This document shows, one piece after another, positions 1 to 28,306 of a DNA stretch of 64,000 nt (positions are counted from its first letter, which is position 1; each line of letters opens with the position of its first letter). The position numbers were made by a program, and so were the translations under genes. This DNA comes from Modestobacter sp. VKM Ac-2984. Its GTDB lineage: Bacteria; Actinomycetota; Actinomycetes; Mycobacteriales; Geodermatophilaceae. Under the pieces are notes generated by a model. The model searched no databases and had not been told where the DNA came from. It saw only the letters and a program-made list of their open reading frames with translations. The stretch spans positions 62,001-126,000 of the forward strand of contig NZ_JAPVBJ010000012.1 of the NCBI RefSeq assembly GCF_026967985.1. The letters run 5' to 3'.

Positions 1-3000
1 GTGCGGGCCGCAGTCGCCGCGCTCGGGCAGACCGTCGGCGTCGTCCTGCTGGCGGCCGGGCTGGCCCGCGCCGTCGCGGACGTCGCCGACGGCGCCACCC
101 CCGGGACGTCGCTGCTCGTGGCGCTGCTCGGCGTCGGGATCCGCGCGGCCGCCGGCGGGCTGGGCAGCGTGCTGGCCACCCGGGACGCCCGGCGGGCCGA
201 GGACACGCTGCGCCGCCGGCTGCTGACGCGGCTGCTCGACGGCGAGGGTGAGGCGGTCGCCGCCGCCGGCGGCAGCGGGCCGGCAGCGGTGCTGGCCACC
301 ACCCGGCTGCACGACCTGGGCCCGGCGCTGGCCACCTACCTGCCGGCGCTCGCCCAGACGATCGTCGTCCCGCCGGTGCTGCTGGTCGTCCTGGGGGTGA
401 CCGACTGGCTCTCCGCGCTGCTGGTGGCGCTCACCCTGCCGCTGGTGCCGCTGTTCATGGCACTGGTCGGGCTGCACACCCGGGACCGGACCGTCGAGGC
501 GGCCCGGGCGCTGGACCGGATCGCCGGCCACGTCGCCGAGCTGGTCCGCGGCCTGCCGGTGCTGGTCGGGCTGGGCCGCGCCGCCGACCAGCTCTCGACC
601 CTGGCCGACCTCGGCGAGACCCACCGCCGGCGCACGCTGGCCACCCTGCGGATCGCCTTCCTCTCCTCCCTGGTCCTCGAGGTGCTGGCCACCCTGTCGG
701 TCGCGCTGGTCGCGGTGACCGTCGGCGTGCGGCTGGTGCACGGGGACATCGGCCTGGACGTCGGCCTGCTCGCCCTGCTGCTCGCCCCGGAGGCGTTCGC
801 GCCGCTGCGGGCGCTGGGCTCGGCGCACCACGCCTCCGAGGACGCCGCCGAGGCCGCCGCCGCCGCGCGTGCGGTGCTCGCCGCCCCCGCCCCCCGGCCG
901 GTGCTGAGCGCGACCCCGGCCGGACAGCTGCGCGGGATCACCGTCGACGGGCTCACCGTCGCCTTCCCCGGCCGCGACCTGCCCGCCGTCGACGGCGCCT
1001 CGTTCGAGGTGGCACCGGGTGAGCTGGTGGCCCTGCGCGGGCCGAGCGGGTCCGGCAAGTCCACCGTGCTCGCCGTCCTGGCCGGGCAGCTCCTCGACGG
1101 GGCGACCGCGCAGGTCGACGGGGTGGTGCTGCGGCCCGACGACGTCGCCGTCGTCCCCCAGTTCCCGCACACCGTCGCCGACACCGTCCTCGATGAACTG
1201 CGCCGGCACGCCGGGGACGTGCCGGAGGAGTCGGCCACCGACCTGGCCGACACCGCGCTGGCCTGGCTGGACGCCGGCCACCTGCGCGAGCGCGCCTGCC
1301 GCACCCTCTCCCCCGGCGAGCTGCAGCGGGTTGCGCTGGCCCGGGCGCTGGTCCGGGTGCAGCGGGGGGCCCGGGTGCTGCTGCTCGACGAGCCGACGGC
1401 GTCGCTGGACGCGGCGAGCACCGCGCAGGTCGCCGAGCTGCTGGTCCGGCTGCGCGGGTCGCTGTGCACCGTGCTGGTCACCCACTCACCGGCGCTGGCC
1501 GCCCTCGCCGACCGGACCGTCGAGCTCGCCGGCCGCACCGCACTCCCACCGCTCACCAGCGTCCCCGCCCCCGCGCGCACGGGGACCGCTGACGCCGGTG
1601 CGCTGCCGGCCGCCGTCGCCGAGCCCGCAGCCGCGCCCGAGGCGGACCGTGGCACGGCAGGACTCGGCTGGCCGCGGCGCGCCGTGCTGAAGGCGGTCGC
1701 CGCCGGCACCGCCTCCAGCGCCTTCGGCGTCGCGCTGACCGCGGTCTCGGGCTGGCTGATCGTCCGGGCCGCCGAGCAGCCGCCGATCCTCACCCTGATG
1801 GTGGCGATCGTCGCCGTCCGGGCATCAGGACTGGGCCGGGCACTGCTGCGCTGGCTGGAGCGGCTGGCCGGCCACGACGCCGCCTTCCAGCTGGCGTCGG
1901 GCACCCGACTGCAGGTGTGGCGCGCCCTGGTCGCGCAGGGCCCGGCCGCCGACCGCACCCCCGGCCGGGCCCTGGCCCGGGTCGTCGGGGACGTCGGCCT
2001 GCTGCAGGACCTCTCCGTCCGGGTGGTCACCCCGCCGCTGGTCTCCGGCGTCGTGCTCGCCGGGACGGCGGCGGTGCTGGCCCTGCTCGACCCGCGGGCC
2101 GGTGCCCTGGTGGCCGCGCTGGTCGTCGTTGCGGTGCTGGGCCTGCTCGGCGTGCACCGCTGGGCCGACCGGGGCGGCGCCCGGCACGCCGCCGAGCTGC
2201 GCACGGTCACCCTGCGGCAGACCAGCGCGACGCTCGAGGCCGCCGGTGACCTGCGCGCGCACGGGCTCACCGGCACGGCCGTCGACCGGCTCGACGCGCT
2301 GGGCCGCCGGCAGGGCCGCTCGGCCCAGGCCGGCGCCACGGCCACCGCGCTGGGCGACGCGCTGGCGGTGCTAACCACCGGAGCCGCCGCCGTCGGCGCG
2401 CTGGCCGTCGCTGCGGTGAGCGTCCGCGCCGGGGAGCTCTCCGCACCCACTGCGGCGATCCTCGCGCTGGCGCCCCTGGCGCTGCTCGAGCCGCTGACCG
2501 CACTGGGGGCCGCGCAGCGCCACCGGCTGGCCTGGCGGGACGCGCGCGCCCGGATCGACGGCGTCCTCGCCGAGCCGGTGGCCACCGACCCCGCACCCGC
2601 CGACCGGTTGAGCCCGCCGCGGCCGGTGCGCGAGCTGGCGCTGGAGCACCTGACCGCCGGCTGGCCGGGCCGCCCGGGAGTGCTGCGCGACCTGGATGTC
2701 GTCGCGACCGCCGGGTCCGGCTGGCTCGTCGTCACCGGCCCGTCGGGCTCGGGCAAGTCGACGCTGCTGTCGGTGCTGATGGCCTCCCTGCGCCCGGCCG
2801 CCGGCGACTACGTCCTGGGCGACGGGCGCCGCCCGGTGCCCGCCGACCGGCTGACCCGGGTCGACGTGCAGGCCGCCATCGCCTGGTGCCCGCAGGACGC
2901 GCACGTCTTCGACGCGACGCTGCGGGCCAACCTCGCGCTGGCCCGCCCCCGCGGTGAGCTCACCGGCGACGACGGCGAGGCGGCGATGCGCCGGGCCCTG

Positions 3001-3336
3001 ACCGACGCCGGGCTCGGCGCGCTGCTGGCCGGCCTCCCGGCCGGGCTGGACACGCCGGTGGGCGCGGGCGGCACCTCGCTGTCCGGGGGCGAGCGCCGGC
3101 GGCTGGCGGTGGCCCGGGCGCTGCTGGCCGACCGCGACGTCGTGCTGCTGGACGAACCGACCGCCCACCTGGACCCGCCGACGGCCGCCGCCCTGGTGGC
3201 CGACCTGCGCCGGGCCCTGGCCGGCAGGCTCGTCGTCTGCGTGACCCACGACCCGGCGCTGGCCGAGGAGCGCGACAGCGTGCTGCGGCTGGCCGGTGCG
3301 GCCGCCGAGCACACCCCGGCCACGGCGCGCCGCTGA
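1..3336 (+). CDS. cydDC: CydDC fused thiol-reductant ABC exporter (5' partial)
   Basis: Heterodimer-type ABC exporter in one chain. In E. coli CydDC exports cysteine/glutathione to the periplasm and is needed for cytochrome bd assembly. The first half has a membrane domain (about residues 1-280) and an ATPase with Walker A GPSGSGKST at 347-355 and signature LSPGE near 437. A linker around 520-555 leads to a second membrane domain and ATPase (Walker A 913-921, LSGGE near 1027). The frame is open at base 1 and the usual N-terminal residues are missing, so the true start probably lies upstream and the GTG at base 1 may be coincidental. Fused CydDC is common in actinobacteria. cydAB would be expected just upstream, outside the window. 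Confidence 0.93.
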   Translation: MRAAVAALGQTVGVVLLAAGLARAVADVADGATPGTSLLVALLGVGIRAAAGGLGSVLATRDARRAEDTLRRRLLTRLLDGEGEAVAAAGGSGPAAVLATTRLHDLGPALATYLPALAQTIVVPPVLLVVLGVTDWLSALLVALTLPLVPLFMALVGLHTRDRTVEAARALDRIAGHVAELVRGLPVLVGLGRAADQLSTLADLGETHRRRTLATLRIAFLSSLVLEVLATLSVALVAVTVGVRLVHGDIGLDVGLLALLLAPEAFAPLRALGSAHHASEDAAEAAAAARAVLAAPAPRPVLSATPAGQLRGITVDGLTVAFPGRDLPAVDGASFEVAPGELVALRGPSGSGKSTVLAVLAGQLLDGATAQVDGVVLRPDDVAVVPQFPHTVADTVLDELRRHAGDVPEESATDLADTALAWLDAGHLRERACRTLSPGELQRVALARALVRVQRGARVLLLDEPTASLDAASTAQVAELLVRLRGSLCTVLVTHSPALAALADRTVELAGRTALPPLTSVPAPARTGTADAGALPAAVAEPAAAPEADRGTAGLGWPRRAVLKAVAAGTASSAFGVALTAVSGWLIVRAAEQPPILTLMVAIVAVRASGLGRALLRWLERLAGHDAAFQLASGTRLQVWRALVAQGPAADRTPGRALARVVGDVGLLQDLSVRVVTPPLVSGVVLAGTAAVLALLDPRAGALVAALVVVAVLGLLGVHRWADRGGARHAAELRTVTLRQTSATLEAAGDLRAHGLTGTAVDRLDALGRRQGRSAQAGATATALGDALAVLTTGAAAVGALAVAAVSVRAGELSAPTAAILALAPLALLEPLTALGAAQRHRLAWRDARARIDGVLAEPVATDPAPADRLSPPRPVRELALEHLTAGWPGRPGVLRDLDVVATAGSGWLVVTGPSGSGKSTLLSVLMASLRPAAGDYVLGDGRRPVPADRLTRVDVQAAIAWCPQDAHVFDATLRANLALARPRGELTGDDGEAAMRRALTDAGLGALLAGLPAGLDTPVGAGGTSLSGGERRRLAVARALLADRDVVLLDEPTAHLDPPTAAALVADLRRALAGRLVVCVTHDPALAEERDSVLRLAGAAAEHTPATARR

Positions 3337-3374
3337 CCGGTTTGCTGCGGCCACCGCCGCGGCACGTCTGGGGC

Positions 3375-4118
3375 ATGACCCTGGCCCAGCGCTTCGCCGC
3401 CGCGGCCGCCGCCGAGGAGGCGACCGCGGCGGCGGACGACGACGGGCACCTGCTCCCCGATCGGCTGGCCCGGACCGCCGCCCGGGTGCTCACCGTGGAC
3501 GGCGCCGGCCTCAGCGTGCTGACCGGCACCCGCGGACGCTGCCCGCTGGGCGCGAGCTCTCCGGAGGCCGGCCGGGCCGAGCGGCTGCAGTTCACCGTGG
3601 GCACCGGCCCCTGCCTGCTGGCGCACGCCTCGGGTGAGCCGGTGCTCGCCGGCGAGGAGGAGCTCCGCCGGCGGTGGCCCGCGTTCGCCGACGCGCTGGT
3701 GTCCACCACCCCCTACCGCGGCGTCGTCTCCCTGCCCGTCCCGGGGGCGCTGGCCGGGGCGGGGGCGCTGGACCTCTTCCTCACCGACCCCGACGACGTC
3801 CGGCGGCTCGACGTGTCCGTCGCCCTCGCCGTGGGTCAGCTGGTGTCGGACGCGCTCAGCGATGCCCTCGTGTGGTCGCCCCGGTCGGACGGCCAGGGAC
3901 CCGGCTGGCTGCGCAGCCCGGCCGCGGTCCGCCGGGCCGTCGTCTGGCGGGCGGTCGGGTCGCTCAGCCTGTCCTTGGACGCCGCCGCCGACGCCGCGCT
4001 GGACGTGCTGCGGGCGCACGCCTGGGCCACGGGGCGCTCGGTCGACTCGGTGGCGGCGGACCTGGTCAGCGGCCGGCTGGTGACCGCCGACGTCCTCGGG
4101 CGGCCCGGCGCGCCCTGA
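3375..4118 (+). CDS. GAF and ANTAR domain regulator
   Basis: A 247-residue protein with a GAF-like sensor domain (about residues 25-150, including the conserved-looking FTVGTGPCL stretch) and a C-terminal helical ANTAR-like segment (about 185-240, with an AVGSLSLSL opening and repeated alanines). ANTAR domains bind paired RNA stem-loops and act as transcription antiterminators. The ATG at 3375 was chosen because the sequence before it is not GAF-like. The gene follows cydDC by 38 bases and precedes a DUF1801 gene by 30, so cotranscription is possible. The ANTAR part is somewhat degenerate, so RNA binding is inference. Confidence 0.75.
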   Translation: MTLAQRFAAAAAAEEATAAADDDGHLLPDRLARTAARVLTVDGAGLSVLTGTRGRCPLGASSPEAGRAERLQFTVGTGPCLLAHASGEPVLAGEEELRRRWPAFADALVSTTPYRGVVSLPVPGALAGAGALDLFLTDPDDVRRLDVSVALAVGQLVSDALSDALVWSPRSDGQGPGWLRSPAAVRRAVVWRAVGSLSLSLDAAADAALDVLRAHAWATGRSVDSVAADLVSGRLVTADVLGRPGAP

Positions 4119-4148
4119 CCGGCCTTGCGGATGAGGCACGCTGGGCAC

Positions 4149-4523
4149 ATGGCGCAGCCGACGGTCGAGGAGTTCCTCGACACCCTGGACCACCCACGCG
4201 CCGACGACGTCCGCCGGCTCCGCGCGGCGATCATGGCCTCGGACGCCGAGCTCACCGAGCACGTGAAGTGGCGGGCGCCGAGCTTCTGCGCCCGGGGCGT
4301 GGACCGGGTGACCTTCCGGCTGTTCCCGGAAGACCACCTGCAGCTGGTCTTCCACCGCGGCGTGAAGCCCGAGGAGACCGCGGGCTTCGCGTTCGGTGAC
4401 GACACCGGGCTGCTGCGCTGGGCCGACACCGACCGCGCCGTCCTGACGCTGGGCGACTCCGCCGACGTGGCCGCCAAGCAGGGCGCGATCGTGGCGCTCG
4501 TGGAGCGCTGGGTCCGGGTCTGA
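4149..4523 (+). CDS. DUF1801 domain protein
   Basis: A 124-residue cytosolic protein. Short helical N-terminus, then the typical DUF1801 signature with HVKWRAPSF near residue 41 and a conserved FR(L/F)FP-like strand. The family includes the YdhG/YobT-like fold, and no enzymatic reaction is established. The ATG at 4149 is the first in-frame ATG after a short spacer from the GAF-ANTAR gene. It converges on the downstream cysteine-protein gene with only 7 bases between the stop codons. Confidence 0.75.
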   Translation: MAQPTVEEFLDTLDHPRADDVRRLRAAIMASDAELTEHVKWRAPSFCARGVDRVTFRLFPEDHLQLVFHRGVKPEETAGFAFGDDTGLLRWADTDRAVLTLGDSADVAAKQGAIVALVERWVRV

Positions 4524-4530
4524 GCCGGCC

Positions 4531-5205
4531 TCAGTCGCAGGGCGGCCCCTCCGGGACGTCGACCTGGATCTCCGGGCCCAGCTCGGCGTCGACCAGCGGC
4601 AGGTCGTCGCCGGACCAGAAGCTGCCCGGGTCGTAGGCGTTGAGCGGCCGGTTCTTCGGCAGCAGGCCCATCGCCGTGTAGGTGGTGGCGACCAGCTCGG
4701 CGCAGAAGACCGTGTCGTTCGTCTGGTGCCGGCGCAGCTTGCCGTTGACCCAGCCGTGGGCCAGGTGCCGGGTGGTGGGGAACGGCTTGCCGTCGAGCCG
4801 GGCGATGGTGCGCAGCACGGCGTCCTCCATCTCCCGCGGCACCCCGCCGTCGTCGGCCGGGCCGACCAGCTGGCGCAGCCAGGCCTGCTGGCCGTACCGC
4901 TTCTTCCAGACGCAGACCGCGTCGGACAGGTCGTGCAGCTGGACCCCGCGCTGGTGCCGGCCGGACCACACGTCGGCCAGGGAGTGCCCCAGCTCGGCGT
5001 GCCAGAGCAACGGCGGCAGGTCCTCCAGGACGACGGCCATGCCGACGTGGTTGACCGGGGCGTTGGTGACCGTCCGGATGGCCCGGTCGGCCAGTGAGGT
5101 GCCCCGGAAGACCCAGACGTCGCCGGTCCGGGTGAGCTCGACGGCGTCGTGCAGCGGCAGGACGCGGGCGGAGGAGGTGCGGAACACAGCGCGGGAGTGA
5201 GCCAC
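4531..5205 (-). CDS. YiiX-like permuted papain-fold protein (candidate)
   Basis: A 224-residue protein with no signal peptide or membrane segment. An N-terminal VNHVGMAVV motif (His about 53) and a later TVFCAELVATTY motif (Cys about 168) match the His-then-Cys order of circularly permuted papain/NlpC (YaeF/YiiX-type) amidases or proteases. Substrate unknown. The GTG at 5205 was chosen over an upstream in-frame ATG because a perfect -10 (TACGGT) ends exactly six bases before it, which fits leaderless transcription; the ATG would lie inside the divergent promoter. It is divergent to a small membrane protein gene. Confidence 0.6.
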   Translation of the reverse strand: MAHSRAVFRTSSARVLPLHDAVELTRTGDVWVFRGTSLADRAIRTVTNAPVNHVGMAVVLEDLPPLLWHAELGHSLADVWSGRHQRGVQLHDLSDAVCVWKKRYGQQAWLRQLVGPADDGGVPREMEDAVLRTIARLDGKPFPTTRHLAHGWVNGKLRRHQTNDTVFCAELVATTYTAMGLLPKNRPLNAYDPGSFWSGDDLPLVDAELGPEIQVDVPEGPPCD

Positions 5206-5210
5206 ACCAC

Positions 5211-5217
5211 TACCGTA
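5211..5217. promoter_or_regulatory. Overlapping divergent leaderless -10 elements
   Basis: The stretch TACCGTA holds a TAnnnT -10 hexamer on each strand: TACCGT (5211-5216) on + and TACGGT (5217-5212) on -. The + element ends eight bases before the ATG at 5225. The - element ends six bases before the GTG at 5205. Neither gene has a Shine-Dalgarno sequence. This is the arrangement expected for two leaderless mRNAs fired from one shared -10. Seen in sequence; function inferred. Confidence 0.6.
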
Positions 5218-5224
5218 ACGGCTC

Positions 5225-5494
5225 ATGCGCCTCTCGAAGCTGCTCGGAGTCGCCGGGATCGTCGGCGTTGCCGCGACCGGCACCGTCCTGCTCCGCCACG
5301 AACGCCACCGCCGGTCCTACACGCCGGAGGAGGTGCGCGCCCGGCTGCAGGGCCGGGTGGCGGAGGTCGCGACCGCCGACGCCGACCCGGACCTCGTCCC
5401 GGACTGGCCGGCCGAGGTCGAGCGGCCGCAGCGCCACCCGATGGAGGCGCTGCTCAGCACGGTGATGCGGGTCGGGCCCCTCCGCCGCTTCTGA
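5225..5494 (+). CDS. Small single-pass membrane protein
   Basis: An 89-residue protein. Residues about 4-23 form one hydrophobic helix (LLGVAGIVGVAATGTVLL) followed by a positively charged HERHRR stretch, so an N-in signal anchor with a cytosolic or surface tail is likely. The rest is charged and proline-containing with no recognised domain. The gene is read from a probable leaderless promoter shared with the divergent cysteine-protein gene, and its stop lies directly beside a palindromic repeat that separates it from eutC. Function unknown. Confidence 0.6.
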   Translation: MRLSKLLGVAGIVGVAATGTVLLRHERHRRSYTPEEVRARLQGRVAEVATADADPDLVPDWPAEVERPQRHPMEALLSTVMRVGPLRRF

Positions 5495-5495
5495 C

Positions 5496-5555
5496 GGCCC
5501 TCTCTCAGGGGCCCGCCCCGAGCTCGCGAGGGGTGGGGGGAGAGAGGGTCCTTCA
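5496..5555 (-). repeat. Palindromic 3'-end repeat, copy A
   Basis: A 60-base hairpin element between convergent genes. Outer stem CCCTCTCT (5498-5505) pairs with AGAGAGGG (5541-5548); inner stem CCCC (5516-5519) pairs with GGGG (5530-5533). On the minus strand it begins TGAAGGACC, and that TGA is the stop codon of eutC. Copies B (14434-14492) and C (60165-60227) share the layout. It has no T-tract but could act as a bidirectional terminator. Confidence 0.85.
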
Positions 5556-6326
5556 GCCCGCGCCCGGGGGGAGCGTCGTCCCCTCGTCCTTGAGGACGAC
5601 GCCGGAGGCGCCCAGCTGGCGGGAGGCCTGGAGCAGCGCGACCAGGGTGTCGGCGGCCTGGGCGTAGCCGAGGCCGTGCGGTGGCCGGACGTTGGAGATG
5701 CAGTTGCGCTCGGAGTCCGCCCGCCCGGGCCGCGGCCCGTGGGTGAGGTACAGACCGAGGCTGTCCGCGGAGCTCAGCCCCGGCCGCTCCCCCACGGCGA
5801 CGACGACGATCCCCGCGCCCAGCGCCTCGCCCACCGGGTCGCCGAGGGCCACCCGCGCCTGGTGCGCGAGGACCAGCGGGGCGACCGACCACCCGGGCAG
5901 CCGGTCCAGCACCGCCGCCACCGTGCCGGCCGCGTGCTCGTGCACGGCCCGCGGGGACAGCCCGTCGGCCAGCACCAGCGCCAGGTCGTACGCGCCGCCG
6001 GGCAGCTCGGTGTCCGGGGCGAGCCGCCGGCCCAGGTCCGGGCGCTGCAGGTAGGTGGCCCGGTCGGGTGCCTGGCTGTGCACCTCCAGCACGTCGAGCC
6101 CGACCCGGGCCCCGGTCAGCGCCGCGCGCACCCGGTCGGCGTCCAGGGCGGTGTGCACGGCGTCGCGGGCGGCCGCGTGCGCGGCGCGGAACTCCAGCTC
6201 CCGGGACGTCGGCAGCCCGTCCCCGGCCCGGCCCAGCGCCACCCGGGCCCGGGTCGCGTCCCGCAACACCGCCCACGGGTCGTCCGAGGGGCCGAAGTCG
6301 CGACTCCGGCCCTGGAGGTCGGTCAT
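5553..6326 (-). CDS. eutC: Ethanolamine ammonia-lyase small subunit
   Basis: A 257-residue light chain of the adenosylcobalamin-dependent enzyme that splits ethanolamine into acetaldehyde and ammonia. EutC hallmarks are visible: ARVALGRAG near the N-terminus, LVLADGLSP, VGERPGLSSADSLG and the C-terminal ERNCISNVRPPHGL, residues known to help bind B12. The start ATG overlaps the eutB stop by four bases (ATGA), so the two subunits are translationally coupled. The stop codon lies in the edge of repeat copy A. No shell or reactivase (EutA) genes are next to it. Confidence 0.95.
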   Translation of the reverse strand: MTDLQGRSRDFGPSDDPWAVLRDATRARVALGRAGDGLPTSRELEFRAAHAAARDAVHTALDADRVRAALTGARVGLDVLEVHSQAPDRATYLQRPDLGRRLAPDTELPGGAYDLALVLADGLSPRAVHEHAAGTVAAVLDRLPGWSVAPLVLAHQARVALGDPVGEALGAGIVVVAVGERPGLSSADSLGLYLTHGPRPGRADSERNCISNVRPPHGLGYAQAADTLVALLQASRQLGASGVVLKDEGTTLPPGAG

Positions 6327-7735
6327 GGACGGGCGGCGGCGAGCAGGGCGCGGGCCGCGGGCGCCTCGGGGGTCAGCTCGCGGACGTGGCCGGCGTCGTC
6401 GAGCAGGTCCATCATCGCCAGCCACGCCTCGAACTCCGGGGCCGGCCGCAGGTCGAGCACCGACCGGGCGGTGAGCACGTCGGTGAACGACAGCGACTGG
6501 TAGTGCAGCATCACGTCGTCCGAGCCCGGGACGGCGATGACGAACGAGCAGCCCGCCGCGCCCAGCAGCAGGGTGAGGGTGTCGGTGTCGTCGCCGTCGA
6601 CGTCGGTGTGGTTGGTGTAGCAGACGTCCACGCCCATCGGCAGGCCCAGCAGCTTGCCGCAGAAGTGGTCCTCCAGCCCGGCCCGGATCACCTGCTTGCC
6701 GTCGTAGAGGTACTCCGGCCCGATGAACCCGACGACGGTGTTGACCAGCAGCGGGTCGAAGTGCCGGGCCACCCCGTAGGCGCGGCACTCCAGGGTCTGC
6801 TGGTCGACCGGGCCGTCGACGCCGTGGTGCGCGTCGGCCGACAGCGCCGAGCCCTGCCCGGTCTCGAAGTAGGTCACGTTGCTGCCCACCGTGCCCCGGC
6901 CCAGCTCCAGCGCGCCCGCCCGGGCCTCGGCGAGCAGGTCGAGGGTGACGCCGAAGCCGCGGTTGCCGGCCTGGGTGCCGGCGACGGACTGGAAGACCAG
7001 GTCGACCGGCGCCCCGGCCTCCAGCGCCCGCAGCGTGGTGGTCACGTGCGCGAGGACGCAGGACTGGGTGGGGATCTCGTAGCGGCTGATCACCGCGTCG
7101 ACCAGCTCCAGCAGCGCGATCGTCTGCGCCGGGGAGTCGGTGGCCGGGTTGATCCCGATGACGGCGTCCCCGCAGCCATGCAGCAGCCCGTCCAGGATCG
7201 AGGCGGTCACCCCGACGGCGTCGTCGGTGGGGTGGTTGGGCTGCAGCCGGGACGCCAGCCGGCCGGGCAGCCCGAGCGTGCTGCGCAGGCCGGTGACCAC
7301 CCTGGTCCGGCGGGCGACCGCGATCAGGTCGGCGTTGCGCATCACCTTGGACACCGCCGCCACCATCTCCGGGGTGAGCCCGCGGGCCAGGGAGGAGATC
7401 GCCACCTCGTCCCGCTCGGCCGCCCGAGCCAGCAGCCAGTCGCGGAACCCGCCGACCGTGAGCGCGGCGACCGGGGCGAAGGCGGCCGGGTCGTGGGTGT
7501 CCAGGATCAGCCGGGTGACGTCGTCCTCGTCGTAGCCGACCACCGGCTCGGTCAGGAAGGTGGTCAGCGGGACGTCGGCCAGCACGTGCTGGGCGGCGAC
7601 CCGCTGGGCCTGCGACTCCGCCGCCACCCCGGCGAGCACGTCACCGGAGCGGGCCGGCGTCGCCTTCGCCAGCACGTCGGTCAGCGAGCGGAACTCGTGG
7701 GTGTGCCCGCCCAGCGTCGTCCGGCGGACGGTCAT
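6323..7735 (-). CDS. eutB: Ethanolamine ammonia-lyase large subunit
   Basis: A 470-residue TIM-barrel heavy chain carrying the substrate site of ethanolamine ammonia-lyase. Characteristic EutB stretches are present: VMRNADLIAVA, PNHPTDD, GCGDAVIGINPATDS, CVLAHVTTT, FETGQGSALSADAHHG and GVDVCYTNH. Length matches the family (about 450-470). The ATG at 7735 overlaps the permease stop by four bases, and its own stop overlaps the eutC start. The three-gene order permease-eutB-eutC points to ethanolamine uptake and cytosolic cleavage without a microcompartment. Confidence 0.96.
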   Translation of the reverse strand: MTVRRTTLGGHTHEFRSLTDVLAKATPARSGDVLAGVAAESQAQRVAAQHVLADVPLTTFLTEPVVGYDEDDVTRLILDTHDPAAFAPVAALTVGGFRDWLLARAAERDEVAISSLARGLTPEMVAAVSKVMRNADLIAVARRTRVVTGLRSTLGLPGRLASRLQPNHPTDDAVGVTASILDGLLHGCGDAVIGINPATDSPAQTIALLELVDAVISRYEIPTQSCVLAHVTTTLRALEAGAPVDLVFQSVAGTQAGNRGFGVTLDLLAEARAGALELGRGTVGSNVTYFETGQGSALSADAHHGVDGPVDQQTLECRAYGVARHFDPLLVNTVVGFIGPEYLYDGKQVIRAGLEDHFCGKLLGLPMGVDVCYTNHTDVDGDDTDTLTLLLGAAGCSFVIAVPGSDDVMLHYQSLSFTDVLTARSVLDLRPAPEFEAWLAMMDLLDDAGHVRELTPEAPAARALLAAARP

Positions 7736-25668: not shown

Positions 25669-25893
25669 ATGACCGAGGACACCGGGCCGGCCGGGAACGC
25701 CGGCGTGATCTGTTCGGCGAAGGGCTGCCGGGAGCCGGCGTCCGTCGTCCTGGTGTGGAACAACCCGAAGGTGCACACGCCCGACCGGGAGAAGACCTGG
25801 ACCGCGTGCGAGGCGCACCGCGAGCAGCTCTCGCACCACCTGGCGATCAGGTCGTTCCTGCGCCGCGTCGAGCCGGTCACCCCCCTGCGGTAG
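25669..25893 (+). CDS. Small Cys-containing protein (often mislabelled acetone carboxylase)
   Basis: A 74-residue protein with CSAKGC near residue 15 and TACEAH near 46. The Cys-x4-Cys and Cys-x2-His spacing suggests a small zinc-binding fold. The central VLVWNNPKVHTPDREKTW block is typical of a conserved actinobacterial family that databases tend to call acetone carboxylase, although it is far too small for that enzyme. The ATG at 25669 follows the divergent SDR gene by 173 bases. Its stop is only about 12 bases before the TPP riboswitch. Function unknown. Confidence 0.6.
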   Translation: MTEDTGPAGNAGVICSAKGCREPASVVLVWNNPKVHTPDREKTWTACEAHREQLSHHLAIRSFLRRVEPVTPLR

Positions 25894-25896
25894 CTT
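25891..25896 (+). promoter_or_regulatory. Candidate -10 (TAGCTT) for riboswitch transcript
   Basis: TAGCTT fits TAnnnT and would start transcription near 25903, at the 5' edge of the riboswitch. It overlaps the stop codon of the 74-residue gene. No clear -35. Confidence 0.35.
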
Positions 25897-25902
25897 CAGC
25901 GG

Positions 25903-25990
25903 CGCACACGGGAGCCCGGGCGCGGGCTGAGAAGGCGGACGACCACCGCCGACCGTCCACACCTGATCCGGTTCATGCCGGCGGAGGGAG
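25903..25990 (+). promoter_or_regulatory. TPP riboswitch (THI element)
   Basis: The two conserved blocks of the thiamin pyrophosphate aptamer are present: GGGCTGAGA at 25924-25932 and, after a short variable stem (GGCGG/CCGCC), ACCTGATCCGG followed by ATGCCGGCGGAGGGAG up to 25990. This matches the THI-box pattern ACCTGATC-YGG-n-ATnCCRGCG-AGGGA closely, with one change in the TAAT loop (TCAT). The terminal GGAGGGAG also serves as ribosome-binding site for the ATG at 25998, so TPP binding should mask translation initiation. Confidence 0.93.
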
Positions 25991-25997
25991 CTGCTCG

Positions 25998-27008
25998 ATG
26001 CTCGCTGCTCGATTCCACGCACCCGGTCGACCCCTGGCCCTGGACGACGTCCCGGTGCCCGAGCCGGCCCCCGACGAGGTGCGGGTGCGGGTGCGCGCGG
26101 CCGGGGTCTGCGGCACCGAGCTGCACTTCACCGACGGCCTGTACGCCCCGTCCCGGACGCCGATGACCCTGGGCCACGAGGCGGCCGGCACGGTCGACGC
26201 GGTCGGTTCCGCGGTCACCGGCTGGGCCGAGGGCGACCGGGTCGCCGTCTACTACTACCTGTTCTGCGGCAGCTGCCGCTGGTGCCTGCGCGGCCGGCAG
26301 AACCTGTGCCTGGCCCCGCGCGGCGTGCTCGCCTTCGCCGCGGACGGCGCCTTCGCCGAGCAGCTCGTGGTGCCGGCGCACTGCCTGGTCCGGTTGCCCG
26401 ACGAGCTCTCCTTCGAGGCGGCCGCACCGCTGTGCTGCGCCGGCACCACCGCGGTGCACGCACTGACCGAGGCCGGGGTCGAGCCCGGTGACGTGGTGGT
26501 CGTGCTCGGCGCCGGCGGCGTGGGCCTGGCCGCGGTGCAGGAGGCCCGGCGACGCGGCGGCGTGGTCGTGGCCGTCAGCCGGGACGACGCCCGCCGGTCG
26601 GCCGCCCGGTCTGCCGGGGCCGTGGCCGCGGTCTCCCCCGCCGAGCTCGCCGAGACGGTGGCCCGGCTGCCCGGCGGGCAGGGCGCCGACGTCGTCGTCG
26701 AGCTCGCCGGGGTGACGGCGACCCTGGAGCTGGCGACGGCGGTGCTCGGCCGCCGCGGCCGGCTGGTGCTGGTCGGCTACAGCGCCGACGCACTGACGGT
26801 GAGCCCGCTGGGGATGGTGGTCGCCGAGCAACGGGTGATCGCCAGCGTGGGCAGCACGCTGGCCGAGCTGGAGCAGGCGGTGTCCCTGGCCGCAGCGGGG
26901 CAGCTCGCACCGCCGGTGGCCGGCCGGATGCCGCTGACCGAGGTCAACGAGGCGCTGGACCGGCTGCGCGCCGGGGACGTCGCGGGCCGGCTCGTGCTCG
27001 TCCCCTGA
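25998..27008 (+). CDS. Zinc-type alcohol dehydrogenase family protein under TPP control
   Basis: A 336-residue medium-chain dehydrogenase. The catalytic zinc site is visible as VCGTELH (Cys about 38) and LGHEAAG (His about 60, Glu); the structural zinc set is in FCGSCRWCLRGRQNLC. The Rossmann loop VLGAGGVGLAAVQ is near 170. Substrate unknown. The start is fixed by GGAGGGAG eight bases upstream, which is the 3' strand of a TPP riboswitch. The MFS gene 44 bases downstream probably shares the transcript. Control by TPP suggests a role in thiamin or precursor handling, which is inference. Confidence 0.9.
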   Translation: MLAARFHAPGRPLALDDVPVPEPAPDEVRVRVRAAGVCGTELHFTDGLYAPSRTPMTLGHEAAGTVDAVGSAVTGWAEGDRVAVYYYLFCGSCRWCLRGRQNLCLAPRGVLAFAADGAFAEQLVVPAHCLVRLPDELSFEAAAPLCCAGTTAVHALTEAGVEPGDVVVVLGAGGVGLAAVQEARRRGGVVVAVSRDDARRSAARSAGAVAAVSPAELAETVARLPGGQGADVVVELAGVTATLELATAVLGRRGRLVLVGYSADALTVSPLGMVVAEQRVIASVGSTLAELEQAVSLAAAGQLAPPVAGRMPLTEVNEALDRLRAGDVAGRLVLVP

Positions 27009-27052
27009 CGCCCCGCAGTCGCGCGCCGGGCGGCGTGTGAGGATCAGCGCTC

Positions 27053-28306
27053 GTGCGACCACGCGGCAAGGACACCCCCCTCCCCCGGGAGGTCGGCGTC
27101 CTGGCGATCGTCGCCTTCGTCGTCGCGCTCGGCTTCGGCATCGTCGCCCCGGCGATCCCGCTGTTCGTCCGCGACTACGGGGTCGGCACCACGGCCGTCG
27201 GGTTCGCCATCAGCGCCTTCGCCTTCTTCCGGTTCATCTCCGCCTTCGCCGGGGGGTCGCTGGTCGAGCGGATCGGCGAGCGGGCGGTGCTCGCCGCCGG
27301 GCTGGCGATCGTCGCGGTCGCCACCGCCGCGGCGGCCCTGGCCGGCAACTTCCCGCTCTTCGTCGCCCTGCGCGCCGCCGGCGGGGTGGGCAGCGCGATG
27401 TTCACCGTGGCCGCCCTCTCGCTGCTGCTGCGCACGGCACCTGCGGCGCAGCGCGGCCGGGCGGCGGCCACCTACCAGGGCGGTTTCATCCTCGGCGGCA
27501 TCGCCGGCCCGGCAGCCGGTGGGTTCCTGGCCGAGATCTCGCCGCGGCTGCCGTTCTTCGTCTACGGCGGCTTCCTGCTGATCGCCGGGGTCGTCGCGCT
27601 GGTCCTGCTGCGGCCGTCCGCGCTGCCCCCGGTGACCGGGGTGGCGACCGGCGTGCCGCCGTCCCTCGACCAGGTCAACGCCGGCGGGCCCTCGACCGCG
27701 GCCGTGCCCCCGGCGGGTGCCGACGGCGGGGGGCTGCGCGCGGCGCTGCGGTCCCGGGCCTACGTCGCGGCGCTGGTGGCCAACCTCGGCGTGGGCTGGG
27801 TGCTGTTCGGCGTCCGCAACTCGCTGGTGCCGCTCTACGTGACCGAGGAGCTGGGCAAGACGGTGGCCTGGGCCGGCGCCGGGCTGCTGGCCGGGTCGGT
27901 GGCCCAGGCCGTCGGGCTGCTGCGGGCGGGGCGGCTGTCGGACACCTGGGGCCGCCGGCCCTCGCTCCTGCTGGGGTCGGGGCTGGCAACCGCGGCGATC
28001 GCCGTCCTGGCGCTGCCGCCGACGACCGCGGCGTTCCTGCTCTCGATGGCCACCTTCGGGCTGGGCGCCTCCCTGCTGGCCAGCGTGCCGGCCGCGGTGG
28101 TCGGTGACGTCAGCCCCGCCCGGGGCGGGCGGGTGGTGGCGGTCTTCCAGATGGTCGCCGACCTGGGCGCGGTGGTCGGGCCGCTGGCCGCCGGCTGGCT
28201 CACCGACACCTTCTCCTACCAGGTCGCCTTCGCCGTCAGCGCGGCCGTGTTGGGTGCGGCGCTGCTCGCTGCGCTGGCGATGCCACGGGAGCGCCCGGCC
28301 AGCTGA
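27053..28306 (+). CDS. MFS transporter, likely in TPP-controlled operon
   Basis: A 417-residue major facilitator with about 12 helices. Helix 1 has VVALGFGIVAPAIPLF and the loop 2-3 region EIGERAVL-like sequence (VERIGERAVL); LAEISPRLPFFVYGG and DTWGRRPSLLLG are typical of drug/metabolite antiporters. A hydrophilic loop of about 45 residues lies between the two halves. It starts with GTG at 27053, 44 bases after the zinc-type dehydrogenase, so it is likely read from the riboswitch transcript. A thiamin-related substrate is possible but unproved. Confidence 0.85.
   Translation: MRPRGKDTPLPREVGVLAIVAFVVALGFGIVAPAIPLFVRDYGVGTTAVGFAISAFAFFRFISAFAGGSLVERIGERAVLAAGLAIVAVATAAAALAGNFPLFVALRAAGGVGSAMFTVAALSLLLRTAPAAQRGRAAATYQGGFILGGIAGPAAGGFLAEISPRLPFFVYGGFLLIAGVVALVLLRPSALPPVTGVATGVPPSLDQVNAGGPSTAAVPPAGADGGGLRAALRSRAYVAALVANLGVGWVLFGVRNSLVPLYVTEELGKTVAWAGAGLLAGSVAQAVGLLRAGRLSDTWGRRPSLLLGSGLATAAIAVLALPPTTAAFLLSMATFGLGASLLASVPAAVVGDVSPARGGRVVAVFQMVADLGAVVGPLAAGWLTDTFSYQVAFAVSAAVLGAALLAALAMPRERPAS

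Follow-up and report, generated by a model that had tools for sequence, protein, structure and literature searches.

A TPP riboswitch conserved ahead of a zinc-dependent dehydrogenase in Modestobacter and other actinobacteria: probably an unrecognised step of vitamin B1 recycling

TPP-controlled genes and salvage of the thiamin pyrimidine

Direct attenuation of translation by TPP aptamers has been reported as a habit of Actinobacteria (PMC2258182). A survey of TPP regulons (PMC3766115) counts 20 biosynthetic and 19 transport orthologue groups. An oxidoreductase under the same control has been described in C. glutamicum, where cg0825, coding for a putative short-chain oxidoreductase, has a TPP riboswitch supported by RNA-seq (PMC3890552). 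Like the dehydrogenase considered in this work, it is a TPP-controlled oxidoreductase of unassigned step in an actinobacterium. The two are presumably not homologous, judging by family only, as cg0825 is a short-chain enzyme and ours is a zinc-dependent medium-chain one.

Salvage of the thiamin pyrimidine is attributed to the TenA/YlmB/ThiXYZ system, which converts AmMP and FAMP to HMP by hydrolysing amines; the word "dehydrogenase" is absent from the text that presents this scheme (PMC10470507). As a TPP riboswitch is a dependable marker of thiamin genes, its retention before a non-classical gene in several classes offers a strong clue to a missing enzyme. The gene described here, found in a 64,000-nt stretch of Modestobacter sp. 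VKM Ac-2984 DNA (the window), appears to be of this kind: judging from sequence, a known riboswitch class controls an unassigned enzyme family. The sequence-only reading of the locus had called such a dehydrogenase unusual. The word has to be toned down in view of cg0825 (PMC3890552); for the zinc MDR family, searches of the open-licence literature yielded no report of a TPP-controlled member among the matches listed.

The riboswitch and its leader

The TPP riboswitch RF00059 is the sole Rfam family matched in the window (59.1 bits against a gathering cut-off of 54.3, E 4.8e-9). Its aptamer covers positions 25898..26007 of the forward strand, with the paired core at 25903-25995. Comparison of 23 leaders of the dehydrogenase gene has shown that the UGAGA and CCGGCGnAGGGA ligand-binding cores are invariant and that P2, P3, P3a and P4/P5 are paired in 95-100% of cells; helix P1 is paired in 50% of cells only. 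Changes on both sides of a pair amount to 27 cells over the whole structure (13.8 after shuffling), some of them within P1, and compensatory change in these leaders exceeds both the shuffles and the slid controls. Taken by itself, the window leader shows no signal in folding free energy (z -0.19), the test being uninformative for such a GC-rich sequence, so the evidence for the riboswitch consists of the covariance model and the leader comparison. The description of the element as near-consensus needs a qualification for the weak helix P1. Compared with other RF00059 THI elements, the one before this gene differs in its barely conserved P1 and in a controlled gene lying outside the classical thi, uptake and precursor genes.

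The overlap of the aptamer with the ribosome-binding site of the dehydrogenase gene, noticed earlier, was confirmed. GGAGGG at 25983..25988 (forward strand) is the only plausible Shine-Dalgarno sequence for this reading frame and belongs to the aptamer core, A25985-G25987 being paired with C25962-U25964 in helix P4. A full aptamer with the Shine-Dalgarno sequence in its conserved 3' core is what known TPP riboswitches with direct attenuation of translation have (PMC2258182). Since the aptamer's own GGAGGG serves as the Shine-Dalgarno sequence, TPP should shut off translation, and we infer that the leader is a translational OFF switch repressed by TPP.

A predicted -10 promoter element, TAGCTT, is located at 25891..25896 of the forward strand. 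A TANNNT element is found at the matching place, 16-21 nt upstream of P2, in 24/24 leaders (Gaiellaceae, Egibacteraceae and the metagenome-assembled locus L045 included) and in 1/667 control stretches, the leaders being mutually related and therefore not 24 independent events. As this element is conserved just upstream of the aptamer, transcription probably begins at the aptamer 5' end, near 25903. Directly upstream of the riboswitch lies a small conserved reading frame of 74 aa (25669..25893, forward strand) which has no Pfam or NCBIfam match and has a homologue in L039 as well. Its TAG stop codon forms part of the predicted -10 box.

Conservation of the riboswitch-dehydrogenase pairing

The window enzyme is 98% identical to that of Modestobacter sp. 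VKM Ac-2982. Close orthologues are patchily distributed, being present in 31/115 Geodermatophilaceae genomes and in 14/23 genomes of Modestobacter. Thirty of the 31 family loci were examined (L005-L034) and 29 have a complete leader; the remaining one, L014, is cut by a contig end, shows the 3' half of the aptamer and was left out of the count. In all 29 full-length leaders the orthologue is preceded by an intact TPP core or by an Rfam match that passes. The distance from AGGGA to the aligned start codon is mostly 6-15 nt (22 nt in the Egibacteraceae locus L062).

The same pairing was found outside the family. A TPP riboswitch is located before the orthologue in a Gaiellaceae genome (L059, 69.3 bits), in Egibacteraceae (L062, 50.2 bits) and in L045, a MAG labelled Acidimicrobiia (54.1 bits). 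The latter two scores are just under the gathering cut-off, with the whole core present and E-values of 1e-6 to 1e-7. The comparative search proposed with the original observation therefore came out in favour of the pairing. The dehydrogenase genes of Actinomycetospora (L043) and Halosaccharopolyspora (L057) have neither a riboswitch nor thi neighbours. A broader search of genomes from the classes of G393 and G146 revealed no further close orthologues. Beyond Geodermatophilaceae the gene occurs rarely and patchily, a pattern consistent with horizontal transfer.

Two loci deserve a separate mention. In Modestobacter sp. DSM 44400 (L042, L017) the aptamer is weakened (39.6 bits, TTGAGA) and the dehydrogenase gene is intact, perhaps a riboswitch in decay. 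The dehydrogenase leader in L094 gives no Rfam match and has an apparent 3' half of the aptamer only; the operon behind it (L094/L112:7900-10729), consisting of the dehydrogenase gene, thiE and an AIRS-like gene, may thus have a decayed or variant riboswitch.

The dehydrogenase and its coenzyme site

The dehydrogenase gene (25998..27008, forward strand, ATG at 25998) codes for a 336-aa zinc-dependent MDR dehydrogenase/reductase with Pfam domains ADH_N and ADH_zinc_N well above cut-off. The catalytic zinc ligands (C38, H60-E61, C147) and the structural ones (C90, C93, C96, C104) are complete and invariant among 24 homologues, in agreement with the two full zinc motifs recognised earlier. Its AlphaFold model is a confident MDR fold (mean pLDDT 94.6). 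The nearest solved structures are the zinc alcohol dehydrogenases 2eer, 1rjw and 3meq (TM 0.94-0.95, 35% identity), which resemble it in the whole fold and in both zinc sites. Since no NCBIfam equivalog (AdhP, Tdh, Ahr and others) reaches its cut-off, the best score being 194.5 against 349 bits and that of Ahr 176 against 470, the substrate cannot be read from homology.

In the tree, every TPP-linked enzyme falls into one clade of 30 sequences (support 99/95). Next to it is a sister clade of 11 sequences (support 100/99), in which no TPP riboswitch was detected. The clades are separated by the residues that follow the second Rossmann strand: [SAG]-R in 30/30 sequences of the TPP clade (S194-R195 in the window enzyme) and D in 11/11 of the sister clade. 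The aligned solved alcohol dehydrogenases also have D here, two of them being annotated as NAD-dependent, so the window enzyme differs from 2eer, 1rjw and 3meq in having S-R at this place, as well as in its CGTELHF motif and TPP control. A basic, non-acidic pattern after strand 2 is the NADP(H) type of MDR enzymes and favours reduction in the cell. The TPP clade thus appears to consist of NADPH-type enzymes and the sister clade of NAD-type ones.

Neighbouring genes and thiamin metabolism of the host

Genes of thiamin metabolism repeatedly accompany the dehydrogenase gene. Blastococcus and Geodermatophilus have a back-to-back pair of TPP riboswitches, of which one serves thiM-thiE-thiD and the other the dehydrogenase gene, the divergent thiM being the nearest gene to the latter; in some genomes TPP-thiC lies a few kilobases from the locus. 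The order in L045 is TPP riboswitch, dehydrogenase, thiD, thiE, while in L094/L112 the dehydrogenase gene is followed by thiE and then by an AIR-synthase-like gene. tenA adjoins the sister-clade dehydrogenase gene in L063, L065 and L096, and L063 and L065 group an aldehyde dehydrogenase gene, the sister-clade gene and two tenA. The pyrimidine genes thiD and tenA thus accompany the dehydrogenase or its sister clade in independent settings. Such recurrent co-localisation in diverged lineages (thiMED, thiD-thiE and thiE as neighbours), together with the conserved pairing, supports the earlier suggestion that the enzyme is tied to the metabolism of thiamin or its precursors. A PfkB-type kinase gene is located directly after the TPP-controlled dehydrogenase gene in Gaiellaceae (L059:6045-6863) and could code for a vitamer kinase.

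ThiC was not found in the genome to which the window belongs (estimated to be 100% complete). The genome does contain ThiG, in a TPP-cytX-thiE-thiO-thiS-thiG locus, and also TPP-thiM-thiE-thiD and TPP-ykoE. With thiazole genes present and no ThiC, the host should make thiazole and need external pyrimidine, i.e., it is a predicted pyrimidine auxotroph. In the same genome, a tandem pair of diverged tenA genes (G000:C12:124219-125393; L003, L127) is transcribed divergently from the cytX locus and recurs across much of Geodermatophilaceae. Most members of this family seem to be pyrimidine auxotrophs: ThiC was found in 10/115 genomes and is lacking in 105/115, and a strong ThiG match is present in 62/115. 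The dehydrogenase gene occurs in 7/10 genomes with ThiC and in 24/105 without it (p 0.004, uncorrected for kinship). On account of this positive association, the dehydrogenase was rejected as a simple replacement for ThiC. Where a family with so few ThiC genomes gets the pyrimidine of vitamin B1 is a question that the dehydrogenase gene makes directly testable.

The MFS transporter gene

As had been noted, an MFS gene starts 44 nt after the end of the dehydrogenase gene at 27008. It occupies 27053..28306 of the forward strand, codes for a 417-aa transporter (PF07690, E 1e-54) and is presumably co-transcribed with the dehydrogenase gene. The MFS gene directly follows in every Modestobacter locus that spans the site and in none of the Blastococcus, Geodermatophilus, Gaiellaceae, Egibacteraceae or Acidimicrobiia loci, and a pattern search found no TPP core near its homologues elsewhere. 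The idea of a transporter dedicated to the dehydrogenase is therefore not upheld, and an obligatory partnership is rejected outside Modestobacter. By gene order, the MFS gene is a genus-level addition, which we take to be co-regulated with the dehydrogenase gene and functionally related to it. Its product may import a vitamer, a role that is weakly founded; among proteins of solved structure, the closest to it in sequence is the efflux protein NorA.

Proposed role of the dehydrogenase

As several bacterial lineages have the riboswitch pairing next to genes of vitamin B1, the dehydrogenase is probably an unrecognised step in the recycling of broken or oxidised vitamin B1. The following scheme has, in our estimate, an even chance of being correct: a TPP-controlled translational OFF switch acts on a reductase that needs zinc and NADPH and serves thiamin-pyrimidine salvage, the likeliest reaction being that of HMP aldehyde to HMP. 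Transcription would start at the aptamer 5' end. When TPP is ample, it would bind the leader, and helix P4 with the adjoining core would hold the GGAGGG sequence, so that the dehydrogenase, and probably the MFS transporter, would not be translated. When TPP is scarce, the Shine-Dalgarno site would open and the enzyme would form HMP by reducing an oxidised pyrimidine, for example 4-amino-2-methyl-5-formylpyrimidine (HMP aldehyde); ThiD and ThiE would then convert the HMP to thiamin phosphate. HMP aldehyde is perhaps the substrate; it is preferred because its reduction yields HMP, the substrate of ThiD. Searches of the open-licence literature gave no publication on an HMP-aldehyde reductase step among the matches listed.

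More tentatively, we speculate that pyrimidine-auxotrophic actinobacteria use this TPP-repressed reductase to recover HMP from oxidised breakdown products of thiamin, as a redox branch beside hydrolysis by TenA. The supposed end product would be the same as in the TenA/YlmB/ThiXYZ route, HMP, and tenA both adjoins the sister clade and occurs elsewhere in the window host genome; the chemistry would differ, being redox instead of amine hydrolysis. We infer the thiamin pyrimidine as substrate and the reductive direction from what was computed here, namely the riboswitch, its conserved pairing, the thi neighbourhood, the split in coenzyme motif and the host without ThiC.

The same regulation and salvage role would be retained if the enzyme acted on the thiazole side or on a derivative of whole thiamin, reducing an aldehyde of hydroxyethylthiazole or of thiamin for use by ThiM or for direct use. 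The divergent thiM of Blastococcus and Geodermatophilus would fit this, and the dehydrogenase-positive genomes G006, G021 and G062 have no strong ThiG match and must salvage thiazole. However, the window host makes its own thiazole (thiO-thiS-thiG) and lacks ThiC, and the partners in other lineages are the pyrimidine genes thiD and tenA, so we regard a thiazole-side substrate as rather unlikely. Zinc MDR enzymes are often broad aldehyde/alcohol enzymes. A general NADPH-dependent aldehyde reductase, taking no part in thiamin metabolism, could be placed under TPP control as low TPP starves TPP-dependent enzymes, with a rise in reactive aldehydes or a disturbed redox balance. Relatives in non-thiamin contexts (L043, L057, L067-L075) speak for such a function, whereas a stress role hardly explains the repeated placement with thiM, thiE and thiD and beside tenA. 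As published TPP regulons are also mostly made up of synthesis and transport genes (PMC3766115), this reading is unlikely.

Oxidation of HMP or another vitamer, i.e., a catabolic function, could apply to the NAD-type sister clade, given the grouping of aldehyde dehydrogenase, dehydrogenase and two tenA genes in L063 and L065. For the TPP clade it is very improbable: an OFF switch would turn catabolism on during vitamin scarcity, and the coenzyme site is of the NADPH type, in contrast to the NAD-type site of the catabolic-looking clade. Finally, chance rearrangement could have put the riboswitch before an unrelated gene, for which nothing speaks except the oddness of the controlled gene. The spacing is conserved, and the pairing is present in every testable leader of the family as well as in further classes of this phylum, so chance placement is ruled out for practical purposes.

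Related loci

In Acidimicrobiia (L067-L075, ~400-7250), NAD-type relatives of the dehydrogenase adjoin genes annotated by eye as an ABC transporter with an NMT1/SsuA-like binding protein and an amidohydrolase, possibly another vitamer pathway. In L110 (6670-10294) a TPP riboswitch precedes thiC, which is followed after 4 nt by a gene for a fused nitroreductase (BluB-like) and DBI_PRT (CobT-type) protein; functions related to the vitamin B12 lower ligand apparently lie within this TPP-controlled operon.
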